From assembly GCF_019393635.1 (NCBI RefSeq), contig NC_057866.1:310001-374000 (forward strand): 64,000 nucleotides of DNA. The letters run 5' to 3'. The translations under genes were made by a program, and so were the position numbers. Below, piece by piece: positions 14,401 to 63,995 of the stretch (position 1 is the stretch's first letter; the number at the start of each line of letters is the position of its first letter). The notes below the pieces were generated by a model. The model was not told the DNA's origin, searched no databases, and saw only the letters and a list, made by a program, of their open reading frames with translations. The DNA comes from Dromiciops gliroides. Lineage: Eukaryota; Chordata; Mammalia; Microbiotheria; Microbiotheriidae.

Positions 14401-17400
14401 GCTTCAGACACTCGCTGTCTCTGTGACTTTAAGGCCAGAAATGAGAGGGGGGGGTGCTGCCTTACTAGAGGAACTTGGGTCCCTCATCTGAGAGGTCCTC
14501 AGACCAAGGTCATCCTGCATCCAGTTTCCTTTTTCTCTCCTAAAAGGAGCCTGAGGCCTCCTGAGCAGGAGTGAGGAAACCTCACCCATACCTTGAGCAC
14601 ATACATGTGGAGGCAGATGGGAGAAGGGAGAGGCTGGAGGCAGGAGACCAATCATGAGGGAGAGGGAGGGCTAACTTTGGGGAGAGTGTCTGGGGAGAAA
14701 GATGAGCTCAGTCTTGGGTCAAGTTTGAGAGAGAGTAAGAAGGAGAAACCCATGGAAACAAAGGTGGGAAGATAGGGCAGAAGCCAGGGCCCTCCTTAGG
14801 GTCTGGAGTCCAGCCTCCCCTCCCCAACCAGGGGACAAACCAGGGTCCCAGGGGTGAGAAGAAGGGAACCGTGAAGAAGATCCCAGAGCTGGTACCCACA
14901 CCAGCCCTTGTAGCTCTCAAACCCTTAGAGGTACAGAGAGATTGCGGGAAAAGTGAGGCTACTGTGACCTTGGGTGCAGTGTAACATGTGGAAGTTGAGG
15001 CAGATGGCCTTTGGGGGCCTATCCCCACCCTCAGCCTCCCACTGGCCTCAACAGCTGGAGGCCTTGCACTTCCTTCCTCCCTGGGTCACCTGGCCAGCAG
15101 ATGCCAGACTTTCTCGGAACTCGGAAAGCAGGTTAAGCTGCTGCTCCAATCTCCAGCAGCTTTGCCTCCACACCCAGGCAGCCAGCCAGCCCCTCCCCAG
15201 CCCTTGTTCTACAGGCACACAGGCACACCCCAGGTGCCCAAGGTCTGTGATGCCCCCCCACCCCCCCACCCCCCCACCCCCCACCAGGGCTGGTCCCCAT
15301 TCTGTTTCTTGGTCTCCCAGTGATCAATCCTAGGCAAAGGCTGGGACCCAGACCTCCCAGAGCCTGCCCTTCCCCACCCACGGGCCTAGGCATGATCCTC
15401 TGTCCTCCCTCCATCATGCTCCTGTTCAGAAGGCCCGGGGTCCTCCCACAGCCACCTGGCTAGATGCTGGACTTCTCATGCTGGCATGCAAAGCTTGTCA
15501 TGGTCTGGCCCAGCCTTCAGTCCCTCCTACATCCTCCGCATTCCCTCCTACTCGCATGCTTCAGAACGAAGGTGGAAAGAAAGAACCAAGCCTGCCACCA
15601 TGCCAACTGGGTCCACCACAAGTTGGTGTTACATAATCTCTGGGTGTCCTCGCACATCTCCCTCATCAGCTCCCTCTCCGACCCCCTGCCTTGTCCTTCC
15701 TCAAACCTCCCATGGCTTCCCCTGCCCCAACCATTCACCAGGTGCTCCTCCTCCCCTCCCTTCACTCAGGTGCCTTCAGTTCCTCTCTCTTCCTTCCTCC
15801 ATCTCCCATGGCCTGACTCCTGACCAAGGCTGATAATCCCATTCTACCCATCTCCTCCAGCAGATCCACCTCTCTCACCAATCCAGTCACTCACTGTCTG
15901 CTTCCCTATGACCTACTCTCCCTCGATCTTGCAGTCCCCACTAGCTTCAAAGTCATATCTCCCCTCCATTTTGTGGGTAAATTTCTTGAGAAGACCATCT
16001 ACACTGGGGATCTCCACTTCCTCTCCTCCCACTCTCTTCTGATCCCTTTATAATCTGGCTTCTGACCTCATTGTCCCATGGAAGCAAAGGGAGAGGTGGC
16101 CTCTTGGCAGCCTTTTCTCCACCATCACTCCCCTAGACCTCTCTGAAACCTTGGATGTTGTTGGTCACTCTCCTCTCTAGGTCTAGGGGATGCCACACCC
16201 TCCTGGTTCCCTCTGGCCCCTGAGACTGCTCTTCCTGTCTTCTCTGCCTCTTCTTCCCTTCACTCAGTGACCTCAGTTCTCATGGATTTAATTGCCATAA
16301 TCTGATGGTTCTCATCCCATCTATCCTGCCCCAACTTCTCTGTTGACTACCAGGCTGGAGTTTCCAGCTGCCCATTGGACATCTCACATTCTTTCTTTTC
16401 CCCCCAGGCAATCAGAGTTAAGTGACTTGCCCAGGATCACACAGCTAGTGTCTGAGGGTAGATTTGAACTCAGGTTCTTACCAATTTTAGGGTTGGTTGC
16501 TCTATGCCCTGCACCACCTAGCTGCCCTGACATCTTAAACTCAACACGTCCCAAACTGAACTCAATCTTTTCCCACCCAAACTCTTGGCTCTGCCAAATT
16601 TCCCTATTCTTGTCAAAGCCACTACGATCCTCTAAACCACCTGGGCCTAAAACTTTGGCACCATCATTCATAATAATAACAACAGCACTTATATAGCACC
16701 TACTATGTGCCAGGCCCCACGATAAGCATTTAACAAATACTATCTCATTGGACCCTCCCAACCACCGTGGGAGAAAGAACTATTGTCCTCATTCTATAAC
16801 TAAGGAAAGTGAGGCAGATAGAGACTGAATGATCTGCCCAGGGTCAGTAAGTGTCTGAGGTCTCCCAGACTCAATCCACTCTATCACCTAGCTGCCCGGA
16901 CTGTGTCCCCGCACCCACACCACACACCAGATCTGTCCCATATCTGCTCATGCCCACACTCAAAAACTCCTTTTCTCATCACCTTCCACCTGAACTAGGT
17001 CATAGCCTTGGCCTCCCTGCCTCCAATCCCGACCACATCTGACCATGCCACCCCCTACTCCATCCCCTCCATTGGCTCGCTATAACCTCCAGGATCAAAT
17101 GCAAGATCTCTTTGGGTGTCCAAAGTCCTCCTTGCCCTGCCTTCCTGGGTGTCTTGCACCTCATTCACTCCAGTGCCCCCTGGCCTCCTGGCAGCTCTCC
17201 TGCCTAGAACACTCTCCCTCCTCATCTTCACCTCCTGCCTTTCTCTGCTTCCTTTAACTAAAATCCCACCTTCTCCGGGAAGACTTCCCTCTGTGGATTA
17301 GATCCTGTCTATTGCCACGTTGTCTCCCTCCTTCTCCCCTCCCCCGAGATTGGAAACTCTTGGAGGACAGGCACTGTCTTTTCCTCTCTGGGTCTCCTGG

Positions 17401-32625: not shown

Positions 32626-32631
32626 TTTAAT
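32626..32631 (-). terminator. Possible poly(A) signal for the heptad-repeat gene
   Basis: TTTAAT on the plus strand is ATTAAA on the minus strand, the common variant signal, about 240 bases past the stop of the heptad-repeat frame. The overlapping palindromic stretch also gives ATTAAA on the plus strand (32633-32638), so the motif alone is weak evidence. Confidence 0.35.
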
Positions 32632-32872
32632 AATTAAAGTCCCCAACAGCTTCGTTCGGGTCCCCTCCGCGGCCCCCAGGTATTCGCTCTCTCCCGCAGG
32701 GCCCCCCATCCCCCAGCTCAGGGACAGAGTTCCCACTTCCCAAAGGCGCCCCCGGCCCCTGCCTGGGCCCCGCCTCCAGGAAGCTGGGGGGAGGGGACGA
32801 GTAGAGTTTTGCCCTGATGGGGCTCCTTCCCCCAGCTTCGCACCCCGGCTGGAGTGGGAGCTGGGAGGGGTG

Positions 32873-33691
32873 TCAAGGTGGAGCTGGGGTTACAATCAGA
32901 GGCGGAGGATTCACGGTTAAGGGAGGAGGGGTCACGGTTAGGGGAGGAAGGGTCACGGTTATGGAATTCGAGTCTGGGGCCAAGGGAGGTGGGGTCACGA
33001 CCAAAGGGGGCGGAGTGATCATTAAAGGAGGCGGGGTGACAGTAATAGGAGGCGGGGTGACAACTGGTAGGCGATGGGAACTCAGATCGAGAGGGGGCGG
33101 AGTCACGGTGAAGGGGGGCAGGGTCACTTCCAAGGGGGGCGGAGTCAAGGTGAAAGGGGGCAGACCAATTGTTTGGGGGCCCAAATCCGCATTTGGAGAG
33201 GGAGGAGGAGGCACGGTCAGAGGGGGCGGGGTCACAGTGAAGGGCGGTGGGGTCACGGTGAAGGGCGGCGGGGTCACGGTGAAGGACGACGAGGTCAAGG
33301 AGGACGGGGTCACGGTCGGGGACGACGAGGTTAAGGAGGTGGGGGTGGCGGTAAAGAACGACGAGGCCGGGGTCACGGTGAAGGACGGCGGGATCGAGGT
33401 CGGGGACTGCAGTCTGGGGCCGAGGGTGAGACCCAAAAGGGCGCGGCTGGGGATGGCCACCTGCTTCTGAAAGCGCTGGGGCGGGGAGCGGGCACGCAGC
33501 GGGACTGACGGGGCTGGGGGCGGGGTCACGATCAGGGTCTTAGGGGCGGAGGACGCTTGGGTGGCGGGCGTCCAGACCTTCCGGCTCGCGTCCAGCTGTG
33601 TGTTGGACGAAGCGGTCGAGCCAGTGGCCTTCGAGGATCCCGACTGCACCAGCTGCTGCCGGGACTGCGGGTGGTGAGCACGGATGATCAT
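32873..33691 (-). CDS. Uncharacterised proline-rich heptad-repeat protein, divergent from PTDSS2
   Basis: Not recognised. Single-exon frame of 272 codons starting at ATG 33691 (A at -3, Kozak-favourable) and ending at TGA 32875-32873. Residues about 1-90 are non-repetitive, basic and Ser/Thr/Gln-rich (start MIIRAHHPQSRQQ). From about residue 90 to the stop lie roughly 19 imperfect copies of a heptad, (F/L/I)-T-V-T-P-P-P, with spacers such as PNADLGPQTIG and DLSSHRLPVV. The DNA unit is 21 bp. Inserted bases between units are multiples of three, and units differ at synonymous sites (CCG/CCA/CCC) or by conservative hydrophobic swaps. ATTAAA lies downstream at 32631-32626. The start codon is about 390 bp from the PTDSS2 ATG, across a shared CpG-rich promoter. 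Against it: the opposite strand is also open through the repeat (GGGVTVK reading, 32817-33470), as expected of any GC-rich 21-bp satellite, and I know no mammalian homologue. It could be a real lineage-restricted gene, a terminal exon, or a promoter-antisense transcript with a chance frame. Confidence 0.45.
   Translation of the reverse strand: MIIRAHHPQSRQQLVQSGSSKATGSTASSNTQLDASRKVWTPATQASSAPKTLIVTPPPAPSVPLRARSPPQRFQKQVAIPSRALLGLTLGPRLQSPTSIPPSFTVTPASSFFTATPTSLTSSSPTVTPSSLTSSSFTVTPPPFTVTPPPFTVTPPPLTVPPPPSPNADLGPQTIGLPPFTLTPPPLEVTLPPFTVTPPPLDLSSHRLPVVTPPPITVTPPPLMITPPPLVVTPPPLAPDSNSITVTLPPLTVTPPPLTVNPPPLIVTPAPP
32880..33400. repeat. 21-bp GC-rich degenerate tandem repeat
   Basis: About 19 diverged copies of a 21-bp unit (plus-strand core GGCGGGGTCACGGTGAAG), interrupted by unrelated spacers near 32960-32990, 33065-33085 and 33165-33210. 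The most regular units are at 33220-33290. On the minus strand the units code the (F/L)TVTPPP heptad; on the plus strand GGGVTVK. Copies are well diverged, so this is an old array rather than a recent expansion. Confidence 0.85.
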
Positions 33692-33699
33692 GCTGCCAG

Positions 33700-34081
33700 C
33701 TGGAGCGGGAGCCGGGCGGGATGTCAATTACCCTGATAACCAATCCGAGCCGGGACTACGAATCCCAGGAGCCGCGCGAATAGGCGTGCGTAACGCGCTG
33801 CGTTTGAGGGGCGGAGCGGGACTACGCTTCCCAGCATACTGCGCGTAGGGGCGGGACGAGGGAGTCACCCTGGCAACCAGCCCGCGTCCCTCCGGCCTGC
33901 TGCTTGGGACTAGGCGCCACAGCGCGGCTTGCGGCCCAGGCGCGGCGTCCAGAGACATGCGCCGGCCCACCCTGCGTGCGGGGCGGGCCGGGGGCGGGGT
34001 GTGCGTGCGGGGCGGGCCGGGGGCGGGGCGCAGCGGGAGGGCCAAGCCGGAGTCTTAGGCGAGCGGTGTGGAGTTAACGCC
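33700..34081. promoter_or_regulatory. Divergent CpG-rich promoter of PTDSS2 and the heptad-repeat frame
   Basis: A CpG-dense block without TATA. It holds an inverted CCAAT box (ACCAATC, 33739-33745), two motifs close to the ZNF143/STAF consensus (ACTACGAATCCCAGGA from 33755 and ACTACGCTTCCCAGCATACT from 33821), and GC boxes in a directly repeated module of about 31 bp at roughly 33975-34030. CCAAT, ZNF143 and GC boxes together are typical of housekeeping bidirectional promoters. Start sites cannot be fixed from sequence. Confidence 0.75.
33957..34058 (+). other. Upstream open reading frame before PTDSS2
   Basis: ATG at 33957 opens 33 codons (begins MRRPTLRAG) ending at TAG 34056-34058, 23 bases before the PTDSS2 start. 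It runs across the repeated GC-box module. It acts as a uORF only if transcription starts upstream of 33957. Confidence 0.35.
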
Positions 34082-37000
34082 ATGCGCAGGGTCGAGCGCA
34101 GGAGTCCCCCGGGCCCGGGGCCGCAGGGCAAGGCCTCGCTGGAAGGGCCGCCGGTGGAGCCCGGGCCCGGGGTTGGGGCTGGGGCTGGGGCTGGGGCAGG
34201 GGCTGGGCCCGGAACAGGGGGCCGCCGCAGCACTGAGTCCGAGGTCTACGACGATGGCACCAACACCTTCTTCTGGTGAGCGTCCGGCGAGCGCGCGGGT
34301 GTGCGCGTGCGCGTGCGCGGGGGAAGAGCGCGCGTGCGCAGGGGAGCGCGCCCCCTCCCCCCCCCCCCGCCGGTCCTTGCCCCTCTCCCCCCCACTCCCG
34401 ACCACCCGCCGTGAAGGCGCGGGGCGCTCCCCCGCCCTCTCCAGTCTGACCCCCGAGCGGCCGTGCTGTGGAGTTTGTAGCCCCTCCCCCTTTTGACCCT
34501 CTGACTTTTCTTTGACCCTGGTGGTGCCATGGACCCCTGGCCTCTTAGAACCTCGAGGAGACCCCACGTGGTGTGGTCTCGGATCCGAGGGTCAGGGGAA
34601 GGCTTCTTGTAGAAAGGGGTCCGCAGGCATCGATCAGGCGCCTGGTATACATCAGGTTCTGTGCTGAGCTTTGGGGATACAAAGAAAAGGAATGGATGTG
34701 CAAAGTATCAGTGGGAGTAACCACCCCCAGGGGAGGCACTGGCGTCTAGAGGGATCAGCAATTCGGGTTCTTCTCCACGGCTTGAAGGTAGCCAGGGAAG
34801 GGAGGTGGTGGTAGGGAGGGCATTCCAGGCAAGGGGAAGAGCCAGGGCCAAGGCTCAGAGTCTGGAGATGGAAGGTCTTGTTGGTGGGACAGCCAGGAGG
34901 CCAGGGTCACTGGATCAAAGAATATATATCAGGGAAAGGGAGGAGGAACAGGTTATGAAGGACCACAAATGCCAAACAGAGCATTTGGTATTAGATCCTG
35001 AAATGATAATGGGGTGATGATTGGACCTGCCCTTTAGGAAGATCAATTTGATACCTAAATGGAGGTTGGACTGGAGTGCAGGGAACTTGAGACAGGCCCA
35101 CACCAGGGAGGGTGTCCCAGGAGTGAAATGGACCAGAAATGGTGCTGAGATGAAATGGACAAGAGGTGTTGGGGAGATGAAATAGACCAGGGTTGGTAAA
35201 GAGGTGAAATGGACCAGAGATGGTGCAGAGGTGAAATAGACCAGGGATGGTAGAGGTGAAATGGACCAGGTATGGGGGGGGGGGGGGAAGGGTGTTTGTT
35301 GGTGAAATAGACCAGGGATTGTGTAGAGCTGAAATGGACCAGGGATGGTACAGAGGTGAAATCCACAGGCCTTGGTGCTATACTAGATTTGGGGGTGAGA
35401 GTGAGGGGGATCAAGCCTAGTTTGGGAGCCTGGGGAACTGGGAGGACTGAGGTTGACCTGGATGGTAATCGAGATGGTGGGGAGGGTTTGGCTCTCATCT
35501 CTGGGCTGCTGCCCAAATGCATCACCAGGACACATGGTCACATTGCCCTGTTGGTCTGGGGGGGGAAGGGGGTCACCTAGCTCAAGGCCACCAGATAGCT
35601 ATTGGGACTGCAAGCATGCTCTTAAGTCTACAGGGGAGGAAGTGAAGGTTTGGAGAGGCCTATGATAATGATGGCAATGCTAAACAAGAGCCAACCCTCC
35701 TCAAGCCCTGTAGTGTTCTCAAAGTGCTTTCCACAGCTCTGGGAAGTCAGGGGTGTTCAGATCCCTATTTTACAGAAAGGGAAACTGAGGCACCAAGTGG
35801 TGAGGATCACAGTGCTTGTAAGCATCTGAAGCCGGAGTCTGCCGTACTACCTGGCTGCCTTTCCTCACTCTTTTCTTTCTGACTCTATGCCCTTTGCTGC
35901 CCCCAGAGTTGTGTCAAGGCATAGATGACCCCACACCTGCCCTCCAGTTGTATGGGTGGTGGGTGGGAGCAGAGCTGAGCTCTTGCTTTTTTTGTTGTGT
36001 GCTCTGCTCCCCCCTCCCCACAGTGGCCAGATGAGTCCCCTGAGGGGCCCTGTGAAATCTGACCCGTTTGTGCCCTTCTGAGGGCCTGCGCCAGCCCGTG
36101 TCCAAGGGAGAGAGCAGGTGGTCAAGCTCCTTTCTACTCCTCCTTTTCACCCAGTCCTGGCTCCCATGGTGGTGGGGGAACCTCTCTCCTTTCCACAAGC
36201 TGTGGGGTCCTCCCTGGCTTTCCTCATCCCCTCCCCCTCCCTTACAGGCCCCTGGCCGCCTCCCCATGCTCCAATGTGCTTGGACCCGTCGGGCAGAGAG
36301 CCTGTCTTCACTCTCCTGTCTGGCTCCTTGGGCCCTCAATGGGTCTCCCACACACACACACAGCCCCCTGGCCTTGACCTGGTCCCTCCCCTTCCTTTCT
36401 CTCCAGCATCCCCAAGGACCCCAAAGGCGGCCCTGGGTGCTCTTTCCTATTTTCTCTTCTAAATGTCTGTCTCTGCCTCCTCTTGGGTCCATCTGCCTGT
36501 CCCCCGAGCTGTGCCCGGGCTCTTGGTGTTCCAGCCTCTCCAGGCTCACGTGTCCAGCCCTGCCTTTGGCTGTCACCACCCTCATGTTCCCAAGGAAGGA
36601 CCCTGTCTTCTCTGAGTCCCGTATCCCATCTGTGGCCATGCTTCCCCCCCAGTCCTTCACTTCCCTCTCTCCAGTCCCCCCACAGCAGTTTGCCTGAAGG
36701 GCAGATGTGACCAGGTCATGTCCTGGCTCTGGCGGCTTCAGAGGTTGAGTTCCCCTGGTGGGATCCCAGGAGGCAGCCAGGGGCTCCCCACCTTGGTGCT
36801 GGGCTGAGCAGGCTGCCTCAGTCTCCCCTAAGAGCAGGGACTGTGGCCGGGGCTGGGGGGGGGAGAGAGAGATGACCCTTATTTGTTCCTACAGGAAGTG
36901 CCCCATAATTAATGCTTTTTGAATGGAAGATGAGCTAGTTGGAATTGTGGACCAGCCACAGGGAGAGACTTGTCAGGCCCCCTGAAAAGCATTGGCCGGA

Positions 37001-43000: not shown

Positions 43001-46000
43001 CTTTTGGTGCATCAGTGCTGAGCCTTTGGACCAGCTTTAGCACTCACTGTAGCTTCTGGTGGGTTGGAGGAACTGGGGGCTTTTCATTTCATTAATGCTT
43101 CCAGTCAGATATTGTTCCCAGTGAGGCTCAAGGGTCCTTCTTAGAGATTTAAGAGCCCCCGCAGTTGACAGCCTTATTAGCTTGTGTTGAGCATGAAGGC
43201 CACGTCCACCCCCAGTGGTGTTCTTGCCAGGGTCCTCCATGGACAAGCAAACTCTGGTGCTTGTCATCTCATTGAGGGGCCAGAGTTTCTAATTATAAGT
43301 GTGCCTCACCTAAAGACAGCCTCCTGGGCTCTTTTTGGGAGGGTCCTGGTCTCATGGTAGCCCTTTGCCAGAGAGTGAATTAGCAGTCTCTTGGGGTCAG
43401 GTGTGTCCAAGCTAAAACCAACTGGCCCCCTGCTGGTTGGAAGTCTGACCTAATACACCAAGGCTGAGTGTGGCTGTTGTGTAGCCTCTGCTCCTCCACC
43501 AAGCATAGGAGGGGACGGCAAGGGGAAGGGACAGAATGAGCGCCTAGATAGAGCCTACTGTGTGCTAGGCCCTGTGCCAAACGCTTTTACAAACGTTACC
43601 TCATTTGATCCCCGCAATAACCCTGGGATGTTGGTGTTATTATTGCCCCCATTTCACAGATGAGGAAAACTGAGGCAAACAGAGGTTCAGCAACTTGCCC
43701 AGGCTGGATTTAAACTTAGGTCCTTCTAACTCTAGGCCCAGTGCCCTGTTTACCGTGGTGCCCCCTGGCTGCCTCAGAAGTCCATGTGAGACCTTAGCTC
43801 TTGAGCAGAAGACCATGGGGGGCTGGCGGCACAGACACTGAGGGGCTCTTTGCTCTTTGTCCACAGAGGGGTCGTGGCCAGCATCTTGGTCTTTTTATGC
43901 TTTGGAGTCACCCAGGCCAAAGACGGACCCTTCTCCAGACCGCACCCAGGTAACCGGCCCTTCACTGTTATCGGTGGTGTTCTTCATGGGGGGCATGAGG
44001 TCTGTCCATCTGAGGCCGTGGTGTGTCAGGCCACAGCCGTGGACCTGCTTCTCTCTGCAAAGTCCTCCCCATGTCTCCCTCAGTAAGGCTTTCGAGGGTT
44101 GGTCCAGGTGGCCTGGGCAGATGAGCACCCTGTCTTTTGGACATCTTATGGCCTTTTATTTTCTGTCAGTCCTCCTCCTTGACTTCTGTGGCCTTGGACA
44201 GTGGCGATCACTTTCCTCCTGGATCCACTCTTCCCTTTAGGCTTTCAGACCCCCCCCCCCCCACCTCTCTGCTTGATCCTTCTCCAGATCACCATAGGTG
44301 TCCCTCAGAGTCTGCTCAGGGCCCTCTGCTCTGTTCCCTCTAAACTGCTTCACTTGGTGACCTCATCAGCTCCCATGGATTTAACTTCTCTGTCTATGCT
44401 GATGATGTTCCGATCTCCCTTTCCTGACCCAACCTCTCTGCTGACCTCCACCTGCCCTTCAGACGTCTCAAACGAAACATCCAGCAGACCCCTTAAAACT
44501 AAATATGTCCGAAATGGGACTCTATGAGCTTACCTCCTCCAGCCCCTATCCGGTCCCCTTCTCTGTAACTGTACAGGGCACTGACCTTCTCCCCAGTCCC
44601 TCAGGCTCCCAACTAGGGAGCCATCCTGGACTCCTCACTCTCTCCCTACCATGTCCAGTATGGTGCCAGAGCCTATCAGTTTCCCCTCTGCTGCATCTCT
44701 GGTCAATTTCCCCTCTGCTGCATCTCTGGTCAGTTTCCCCTCTGCTGCATCTCTGGTCAGTTTCCCCTCTGCCACATCTTTCACCAGTTTCACCTCTCCA
44801 GTGTCTCTCTAATACAGCCCCTTCTCTCCTCTGATACTGCCCCCCACCCTGGGGCCGACCCTCATCACCTCATGCCTAAACTGTTGCAATAGCTGCTGGA
44901 GGGTCTGCCTGCCTCGAGTCTCTTCTCACCCTATTCCATCCTCCCTTCAGCCACCAAAGTGATCTTTCTAAAGCACAGGTTTGATTATGTCACCCCCTAC
45001 TCAGTGGTTCCCTATCACCTCCAGGATCACATACCAAATGCTCTGCTTGTCATTCAAAGCTGCCACCTCCTCCTTCCTTTTCCATCTTCTTACACCCCAC
45101 CCCCGAGCATATCGTCTTTGATCCAGTGCCCTCGGCTCCAGCTGTTCACCTACACCCTCCATCTCTCAGGCTGTTCCCCCATGCCTGGAATGCTCTCCCT
45201 CCTCCTCTGTCCCCTGACTTCCCTGGCTCTCTTAAGTCCCAGCTCAACTCTCAGCTCCTCCAGGAAGCCTTCTGTTGAGCCCCCTCTCTCCAGTACCTTC
45301 CCTCTGTACATCGTTTTCAGTTTTATTGCAATATCTGATAAAGAATGTCATAGGATTGATATGGGGACGGTGGTGAGATGTGGGCTGGTGGATGTGGCAC
45401 AGCTCAGAGAAATTGGCTGTGAAAGAGGTCTCTAATGGTATCGGTGCCTGGCTCTGTGTGGGGACTCTTTTGGTGGAAGGCTGATCACAACTGAGGGGGC
45501 ACCAAGCTGATAGGAGCCACACGGTGAGTGACAAGTCAGGGGACACAAAGACTGGGCAGGCTAGAACATTGGGCTGGCCATGAGAAAATGAGCTGGTTTA
45601 AAGTAAGGGAGGCAGGCTTAGAAAACTGTTGGATAAAAATTGGGGCTCAGTCAGTCTCTGTGCCAGGCATTGTGCCAGGCAGGCTTCTGTCCTCTCAAGG
45701 CAGAGGCTTTCCTGGCCTGTGTCCTCGCTGAGTGGTCTGTCAGTCCTGAGAAAGGATGTTGATTGGCTAGGGAGGGTCCCGAGGAGGCCCCCTCAGTGGG
45801 AGATCTGTGGGAGACAGGGATTCTGTTGTCAAGTATTCCAAGGCAGAGAACAATTTGAACTGTTTGGGTCCCCCAAGGCAGAGCTGGGATCAGAAAGGAG
45901 GCCAAGGAAATAAACCCAGTTAGAGCTCCCCTCTCCTGCAAAGCAAGGCTCAGTTCCTCAAAAGGCTTCAGTCAGGGGCAGCTAGGTGGCGCAGTGGATA

Positions 46001-61949: not shown

Positions 61950-63995
61950 TCACGACGTGATTCGCAGGCTGGGTTTGGACTCCTTCAGAGCCGTCAGCTC
62001 ATTGTCCACCTCCTCTGTCCAGTAAATGTCAAACAGGCTGGGGGGAAGGAGAGGAGAAGGATCAGGCCGAGGTCACTCCTCCACATGAGCCACCAGTGGG
62101 GCCCTCCCCTCCCCTTTCCCCGGGGGGCTCCACCGCCAGCACTCACACCAGCTGCTCCAAGGTGCAGCTGGGCTCCTTGAGGCTGGCCACCAGCAGCCTG
62201 ATGCCCTCATCGCCCATCCTGTTGTTGCTAAGGTCCAGCTCCTTCAGAGTATGGTTGGCGAGCAGGATGGCTGCCAGGGTCCCACAGCACTTGTCCGAGA
62301 GCTCACAATCCCCCAGCCTGGGAAGCAATGGCCAGAGCCCAGTGTTAGGGGCTCCTCCTCCCCCCTCTCCTCCCCCTCCTCCTCCTCCCCTTCTTCCTCT
62401 CCCCTCCCCCCCCCTCCTCCTCCCCTTCTTCCTCTCCCCTCCCCTTCCTCCCCTCCTCTCCCTCCCCCTTCTCCTCCCCCTCCTCCTCTCCTCTCCCTCC
62501 CCCTCTCCTCCCCCTCCTCCTCCTCCCCTTCCTCCCCTCCTCTCCCCTCCTCTCCCTCCCCCCTCTCCTCCCCCTCCCCTTTCTCCCTCTTCCCTCCCCC
62601 TCCTCTTCCCCTCTCCTCCCCCTCCTCCCCTCCCCCTCCCCTTTCTCCCTCTTCCCCCCCCCCCAGCTCACAACAGGGCCCTCACCACAGACTCTGGATG
62701 CTGCAGTCCGGGTGCATGAGGCCCCTGCTCATCTGCTCGATGCCATCGTCCTCCAGCATGTTGGTGCTCAGCTGCAGCTCCCTCAGGGTCCGGTTCTTCT
62801 CCAGGACGGTGCAGAAGTTGGCGCAGCTGGCCGTCGTGAAGCCGCACGTCCTCAGCCTGTGGGAGAGGGCTCACTGAGACACCCGGGGCCCCACCCGACC
62901 CGGGCCGGAGCTGCAGGTTCGCCTGGGCGGCAGCGCTCACTCCAGGGGGGCACTCACCACAGCTCCTCCAGCTGGCAGTTGGGGTCCACCAACGCCTGGC
63001 ACAGCAGCTCTGCCCCCTCGTCGCCCAGCAGGTTACAGATGAGGCTCAGCTTCTTCAGGCAGGGTTTGCCCATCAGGATCTGGGCGAGGACCTTGCAGCC
63101 CTCGGCCGTGATGTCACACTCCCACAGCCTGCAGGGATGGACGGGGACAGTCCCTTGGCATCCTGCCAAAAGCTGCCTCCCCTGGGTGAGGAGGGTGTCC
63201 AAGGAGCCTTTCCCCAACTCCAGCTCCGTGCTGCGCCCTGGGTTTTCTGAACACTCCCCTACCTCTTCCTCCAGATGGGGTCTGAGCTGCTCCCTAGTCC
63301 TGGGAACTCTGTATGCTTAGCTCAGTGCCTGGCATACAGCAGGTGCCTCATAAATGTTTGCTGACTGGTTATGCCTACCCTCAGGCAGCCTGAGAGCCCA
63401 TCAGCTTTCTGCCAATGCTCCTTAGGCTTACGGTCACTCAGATACTTCTCAGATCCATACTCTGTAAGGTCCTAGGAGGCCAACTCTTTTAGTTTCCCTG
63501 TGGAACTTGGCATGGCTCCCTAGTAAATTAGTGCTCTCTCAAGTACTGTAAACCCCTCACCAGCCCTTTACCAAAAATGGGGTTTGCCAAGCCCAGCTCC
63601 TGTCCACGTTCTCCCAGGCTCCCAGGCAAGGATTCCGATAGCCTGGATCTTCTTGCAGCTCAGGAGGTGTGCAGAAAGTTCCCTGAGGGCCCCCCCCCCC
63701 CAAACAGCTGCTGAGAATAGCCTCCGGCTAAGGCGGCTTCCAGGCTGGTATGTCAATTCTCCAGGACTGCAGGTTCAGGCTCATAACCTCAGGAGGGACT
63801 AAGATCAGGCCAAGGCCGACTCACCATAAGGTCTTCAGCCTGCAGGTTGGGCTCAGGACCCCCTGGTACAGCTGGGCCAAGCCGGCGTCTCCAATCTTGT
63901 TTTCTCCCAGGCACAACTCCTGCAGGGATTCCTTGGTCTGGAGCACCATGCTGAGGTCCTTGCAATTAGCAGAGGTGACTCCACACCCCTCTAGC
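61950..63995 (-). CDS. RNH1: Ribonuclease inhibitor, C-terminal five coding exons (5' part outside the window)
   Basis: Cytosolic leucine-rich-repeat protein that binds pancreatic-type RNases and angiogenin with extreme affinity. Exons in transcript order: 63995-63825, 63128-62958, 62856-62686, 62317-62147, then 62037-61950 with stop TGA 61952-61950. The first four are each exactly 171 nt (57 residues, one A/B LRR pair), the classic RNH1 exon module, all with the same phase. LRR signatures are clear ([24 protein letters not shown]). Tryptophans at repeat joins match human W261, W263, W318 and W375 (TLW-LWEC, EELW, QSLW). The C-terminus [14 protein letters not shown]...PSLRITS aligns to human LYDIYWSEEMEDRL...PSLRVIS; the position equal to human Tyr434 is Phe (codon 62033-62031). 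Earlier exons lie beyond 64000. Confidence 0.97.
62343..62667. repeat. 325-bp polypyrimidine tract in an RNH1 intron
   Basis: Uninterrupted C/T text built of CCTCC, CCCCTTCTTCCTCT and similar blocks, following one G-containing lead. On the transcribed RNH1 (minus) strand it is pure purine. It fills most of a 368-bp intron. Confidence 0.95.

Follow-up and report, generated by a model that had tools for sequence, protein, structure and literature searches.

The C-terminal domain (CTD) of RNA polymerase II is composed of diverged seven-residue units of the YSPTSPS type that carry S/T-P sites, and mucin-like O-glycosylated stalks are rich in Pro, Thr, and Ser. Bidirectional promoters are reported to give rise to lineage-specific transcripts with low coding potential, and promoter-identified novel transcripts are arranged head-to-head with, and less than 1 kb from, a conserved protein-coding gene (Gotea et al. 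2013, PMC3583895). The locus described here lies in a window of 64 kb, by which we mean the whole stretch of DNA that was analyzed. It would likewise be arranged head-to-head with a conserved gene, PTDSS2, with 390 bp separating the two ATGs (measured from the ATGs rather than from transcription starts). Whereas those novel transcripts are of low coding potential, the candidate frame shows coding signals. Its predicted product, like the CTD, contains diverged seven-residue units with S/T-P sites, but the unit is FTVTPPP, there is no Tyr in the whole protein, and the candidate is not part of a polymerase subunit. Like mucin-like stalks it is rich in Pro, Thr, and Ser, but it differs from them in that its hydropathy profile shows nothing resembling a signal peptide or a membrane span. 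It is easy to dismiss low-complexity repeat frames that adjoin CpG promoters. Judging from its sequence, this one is probably an unlisted protein-coding gene with a frame under constraint. If confirmed, it would add a gene to the ANO9-PTDSS2 interval and provide a concrete case in which to study how a protein could come from repeat expansion at a bidirectional promoter.

The candidate gene and its neighbors

Open reading frames of the window include a complete minus-strand frame that runs from an ATG at 33691 to a TGA and is predicted to encode 272 amino acids (Table 1). This is the frame divergent from PTDSS2 that a sequence-only reading of the same DNA had pointed out. Using human protein sequences as tblastn queries, we found matches to ANO9 at 5.6-12.8 kb (minus strand) and to PTDSS2 at 34.1-59.4 kb (plus strand), with the PTDSS2 ATG at 34082. 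RNH1-like frames on the minus strand at about 62-63 kb were identified from our reading of the open reading frame list. Neither the sequence-only reading nor we know of a human gene at the corresponding spot beside PTDSS2. A literature search found no paper joining PTDSS2 with a bidirectional promoter, a marsupial, or a divergent transcript, and none containing the string TVTPPP.

Table 1. Positions of the candidate gene and associated features in the window.
Feature	Position	Strand	Basis or remark
Candidate gene, 272-codon ATG-to-TGA frame	32873..33691	-	Open reading frame; no Pfam or PDB match
Non-repeat N-terminal part, codons 1-94	33410..33691	-	G or C in 59, 57, and 79 of 94 codons at positions 1, 2, and 3
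Array of diverged 21-bp units coding (F/L/I)xVTPPP, plus some longer 36-bp-type units and inserts	32876..33409	-	Repeat and consensus scans
Overlapping 217-codon frame with GGGVTVK heptads, wobble positions coinciding with those of the minus frame	32817..33470	+	Rival frame
ATTAAA, poly(A)-signal-like hexamer 3' of the stop	32626..32631	-	Motif scan; a single hexamer is weak evidence
ZNF143-like site	33755..33768	+	Exact motif match
ZNF143-like site	33821..33834	+	Exact motif match
PTDSS2 first coding exon, divergent neighbor	34082..34276	+	tblastn with human PTDSS2

Several features surrounding the frame had been listed by the sequence-only reading and were recovered. The start codon has a good Kozak context with an A at -3 (GGCAGCATGA). 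The ATTAAA 3' of the stop, at 32631, is weak evidence as a single hexamer; from 34000 to 32373 the minus strand has no other ATTAAA and no AATAAA. The same interval contains no GTRAGT or GTRAGG donor-like sites, and the candidate gene is intronless-looking. Two exact ACTACNNNTCCCAG sites, which we take to represent the ZNF143-like motif, are located between the ATGs at 33755 and 33821; two exact sites occurred in 0 of 100 shuffles, and when one mismatch was allowed at least two matches were common (42 of 100 shuffles).

Other repeated DNA is found near these genes. A 29-bp GC-box-like stretch is perfectly duplicated in tandem at 33973-34028, just 5' of PTDSS2, and exon 1 of that gene contains a (GGGGCT)n tract (34169-34207) that in frame encodes Gly-Ala repeats. 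Intron 1 contains a 27-bp minisatellite family (35123-35362) that recurs in inverted orientation about 9 kb further on (44676-44797) and again at L039 5554-5874, corresponding to C6:409554-409874 (the window is C6:310001-374000); the consensus units agree at 22 of 27 bases. A long CT-rich simple tract with several open frames adjoins the RNH1-like frames at 62352-62664.

Architecture of the heptad array

The heptad region comprises codons 95-272, or 65% of the frame, in agreement with the two thirds estimated earlier. A consensus scan requiring at least 12 of 21 matches identified 23 units, 22 of which are in the frame of the candidate gene; the one out-of-frame unit (offset 190) is within the non-repeat part. 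For tests of variation between copies we used 18 units and dropped five (offsets 190, 288, 357, 372, and 387). Spacings among these 18 copies are 21 or 42, with the exceptions of 153, 27, 72, 66, and 45. All five irregular gaps are multiples of 3, which bears out the earlier observation that inserts keep the frame. The diverged copies contain no in-frame stops in the candidate frame versus 21 in minus frame +1. We also considered whether an out-of-frame match of 16 bases within the candidate frame marks a frame shift, and rejected this because a match of equal strength is present in 17.5% of 40 simulated sequences.

The length of the open frame is weak evidence for coding because several frames are open over the array and long frames occur elsewhere. 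Over the array, minus frame +2 runs 273 codons from stop to stop and a plus frame runs 217 codons from its own ATG, making three of six frames open there. Elsewhere in the window there are stop-to-stop frames of 386, 324, and 323 codons, and the 94 non-repeat codons are open in approximately 35% of simulated sequences with like composition. With other frames also open, including over the array, we rejected openness as evidence for coding. It is more useful to ask whether this DNA shows the variation and the composition expected of codons.

Variation between repeat copies

Among the 18 copies of the 21-bp unit, changes from the consensus at codon positions 1, 2, and 3 numbered 18, 11, and 55. 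The pN/pS is 0.36 in the candidate frame, whereas the other two minus frames have values of 1.24 and 1.80. Since all columns of the array share one duplication history, we permuted the columns. With heterozygosities rounded to two decimals, 13 of 116280 arrangements of the chosen units reached the observed third-position variability. This number was 9 of 6188 when CpG columns were removed and 9 of 495 when only the first four codons were used, leaving out the CCN-rich part of the unit. The result was thus weaker on the first four codons, for which it was 6 of 120 when CpG columns were also removed.

When units were chosen mechanically, the any-phase test gave p values of 0.0011-0.0132 in all but the loosest of 12 settings, for which the value was 0.147; over a wider region the p value was 0.053. 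The same test gave p values from 0.049 to 1.0 for eight control arrays whose unit length is 3n bases, although the power is low for several of these, which vary little or consist of few copies. The controls were drawn from 39 records comprising 241,377 bases; nine arrays were listed, and one of them, L035 2669-2877 (p 0.82), was left out of the eight-array comparison. A single phase was common to all 16-21 candidate units in 8 of the 12 settings and to between 20/21 and 25/27 in the other four, and in six of the eight control arrays the units were spread over two or more phases. No phase signal was seen in ungapped TRF slices taken from the candidate array, which either cut across indels or were limited to four similar copies (p 0.67 and 0.23). 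Variation between copies within one genome provides a coding test without a second species, and its outcome favors coding.

Base composition of the non-repeat part

In codons 1-94 the GC content by codon position is 0.63, 0.61, and 0.84 (one-sided p 7.0e-5). The third-position GC excess changes from -0.12 just 5' of the ATG to +0.30 just inside it. We compared this with 275 stop-free tiles of 94 codons that lie outside an exon mask, the candidate frame, and simple arrays; the mask was based on tblastn for ANO9 and PTDSS2 and on our reading of the open reading frame list for RNH1 and ANO9 exon 1. None of these non-exonic tiles reached a p value of 1e-4 and one reached 1e-3, whereas among the 65 with a GC content of 0.63-0.75 none reached 1e-3. 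That one tile, on the plus strand at 15464-15745 (p 1.8e-4), is possibly an unlisted exon or chance. On the same regular grid of tiles, the tile nearest to the N-terminus (33446-33727), which includes 12 upstream codons, has a p value of 8.5e-4, with 1 of the 275 non-exonic tiles lower, and the next tile (33353-33634) has a p value of 7.6e-6. At the 1e-4 level, 5 of 41 exonic tiles were recovered and three of these five were on the strand opposite the gene; therefore, the GC3 signal is a better guide to coding DNA than to its strand. A spread of GC by phase as large as that of the candidate was found in 53 of 364 GC-matched 282-bp windows, and each of these 53 overlaps a masked exon, the CT-rich tract at 62352-62664, or the candidate frame.

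Over 33270-32851 the GC3 excess is close to zero or below it, so that for the C-terminal half the case for coding is the variation between copies. Coding was not supported by a codon score trained on protocadherins. In codons 1-94 the candidate frame is the best of six, yet its score is negative (-0.481), and 458 of 540 GC-matched windows, each represented by the best of its six frames, score as high or higher. The model was built from 29 protocadherin training frames with a GC3 of 0.54 and is ill-suited to a G+C-rich region.

The third-position variation among copies exceeds chance, and so does, it appears, the GC composition by codon position of the non-repeat part. Together with the frame-keeping gaps, the copy variation and the GC3 periodicity of the non-repeat part support the proposal of the sequence-only reading that this is a coding frame under constraint. 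The same reading had asked whether all frames are equally constrained; within this one genome the minus frames are not, but a plus frame that shares the wobble columns is as constrained as the candidate frame.

Alternative explanations

The array could be a G+C-rich 21-bp minisatellite by a CpG promoter, crossed at most by a short-lived upstream antisense RNA. A long frame would then arise by itself because the unit is a multiple of 3 and is stop-free in several frames, as the three open frames over the array illustrate. There are other minisatellites in the window and its flanks, the protocadherin-trained score gives coding no support, and slippage in the part of the unit that is a CCN run could alone produce variation with a period of 3. 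However, the third-position variation extends past the CCN part (9/495), the GC3 periodicity of the non-repeat part begins at the ATG, and one phase is held by all 16-21 units in most settings when 6 of 8 control arrays are in more than one. We consider it unlikely that the locus is a minisatellite of this kind. Some promoters carry 21-bp GC-box repeats, and the array might instead be regulatory DNA of the PTDSS2 promoter, in which a spacing of 21 bp (two helical turns) would place GC boxes and GGTCA-like half-sites along the same side of the helix. The plus-strand unit resembles GGGGCGGGGTCACGGTGAAGG, and the spacing is mostly 21. By contrast, variability across the columns has a 2-of-3 pattern and is not arranged in site-like blocks, and a regulatory array leaves the GC3 signal of the non-repeat part unexplained. 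This explanation, which is compatible with coding, is very unlikely.

The choice of strand needs separate consideration, as the true coding frame could be the plus-strand GGGVTVK frame, with the minus frame a mirror image of it through shared wobble positions. The two have similar pN/pS values (0.34 for plus, 0.36 for minus) and their replacements are about equally conservative (mean BLOSUM62 of -0.57 for plus and -0.53 for minus); because they share wobble columns, neither measure separates them. However, the plus frame ends at a stop at 33468 and a further in-frame stop follows at 33675, and the periodic GC signal does not end with the plus frame but extends over minus codons 1-74 (one-sided p 6.1e-4) as far as the minus ATG. 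The position adjoining the promoter also favors the minus frame. With three of the five exonic tiles at the 1e-4 level on the opposite strand, the strand argument from the GC signal is not decisive. All told, we regard plus-strand coding as highly improbable.

The predicted protein

The minus-strand candidate gene would be transcribed divergently from the PTDSS2 promoter. It is predicted to encode a protein of 28.2 kDa with a pI of 11.7 that contains 25.4% Pro, 15.4% Thr, and 11.8% Ser, with 20 S/T-P sites, 11 TPPP motifs, and no Tyr or Cys. By its layout the product would begin with 94 non-repeat residues, after which come about 20 diverged heptads of the form (F/L/I)-x-V-T-P-P-P. Hydropathy revealed no signal-peptide-like or membrane stretch (the highest 19-residue value was 0.9, and near the N-terminus it was -0.55), which lends no support to the O-glycosylated stalk suggested by the sequence-only reading. 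Its comparison with the RNA polymerase II CTD did not carry beyond the unit length of seven, with Tyr absent. AlphaFold2 run on the single sequence gave a mean pLDDT of 50.2 and a pTM of 0.31, and predicted short strands that for the most part coincide with the hydrophobic residues of the heptads, which is suggestive at most. No match was found in Pfam up to an E value of 1 or among PDB sequences up to an E value of 10, and Rfam gave none in the window at gathering scores.

When the protein was searched against its own genome (3.30 Gb, 17 contigs), only the candidate locus was found at E values up to 0.001. The N-terminus alone gave three further matches at E values up to 10 (E 1.85-2.97). No paralog of the candidate gene was thus found in its own genome. 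A more far-reaching reading, less likely than not, is that the candidate gene is restricted to its lineage, having originated de novo by the PTDSS2 promoter when a 21-bp unit expanded, and that purifying selection has since acted on its Thr-Pro heptad product.

The product would most likely be a basic, disordered protein inside the cell, and perhaps a docking scaffold. Regularly spaced short hydrophobic segments with T-P-P-P kinks between them could offer many equal docking sites for a partner domain, and the 20 S/T-P sites would be open to proline-directed kinases; this mode of docking and phosphorylation is a tentative suggestion. The predicted protein also contains the motifs PPPLI, which we take to be an ETO MYND ligand, and LTSSS, which is presumably SPOP-like.
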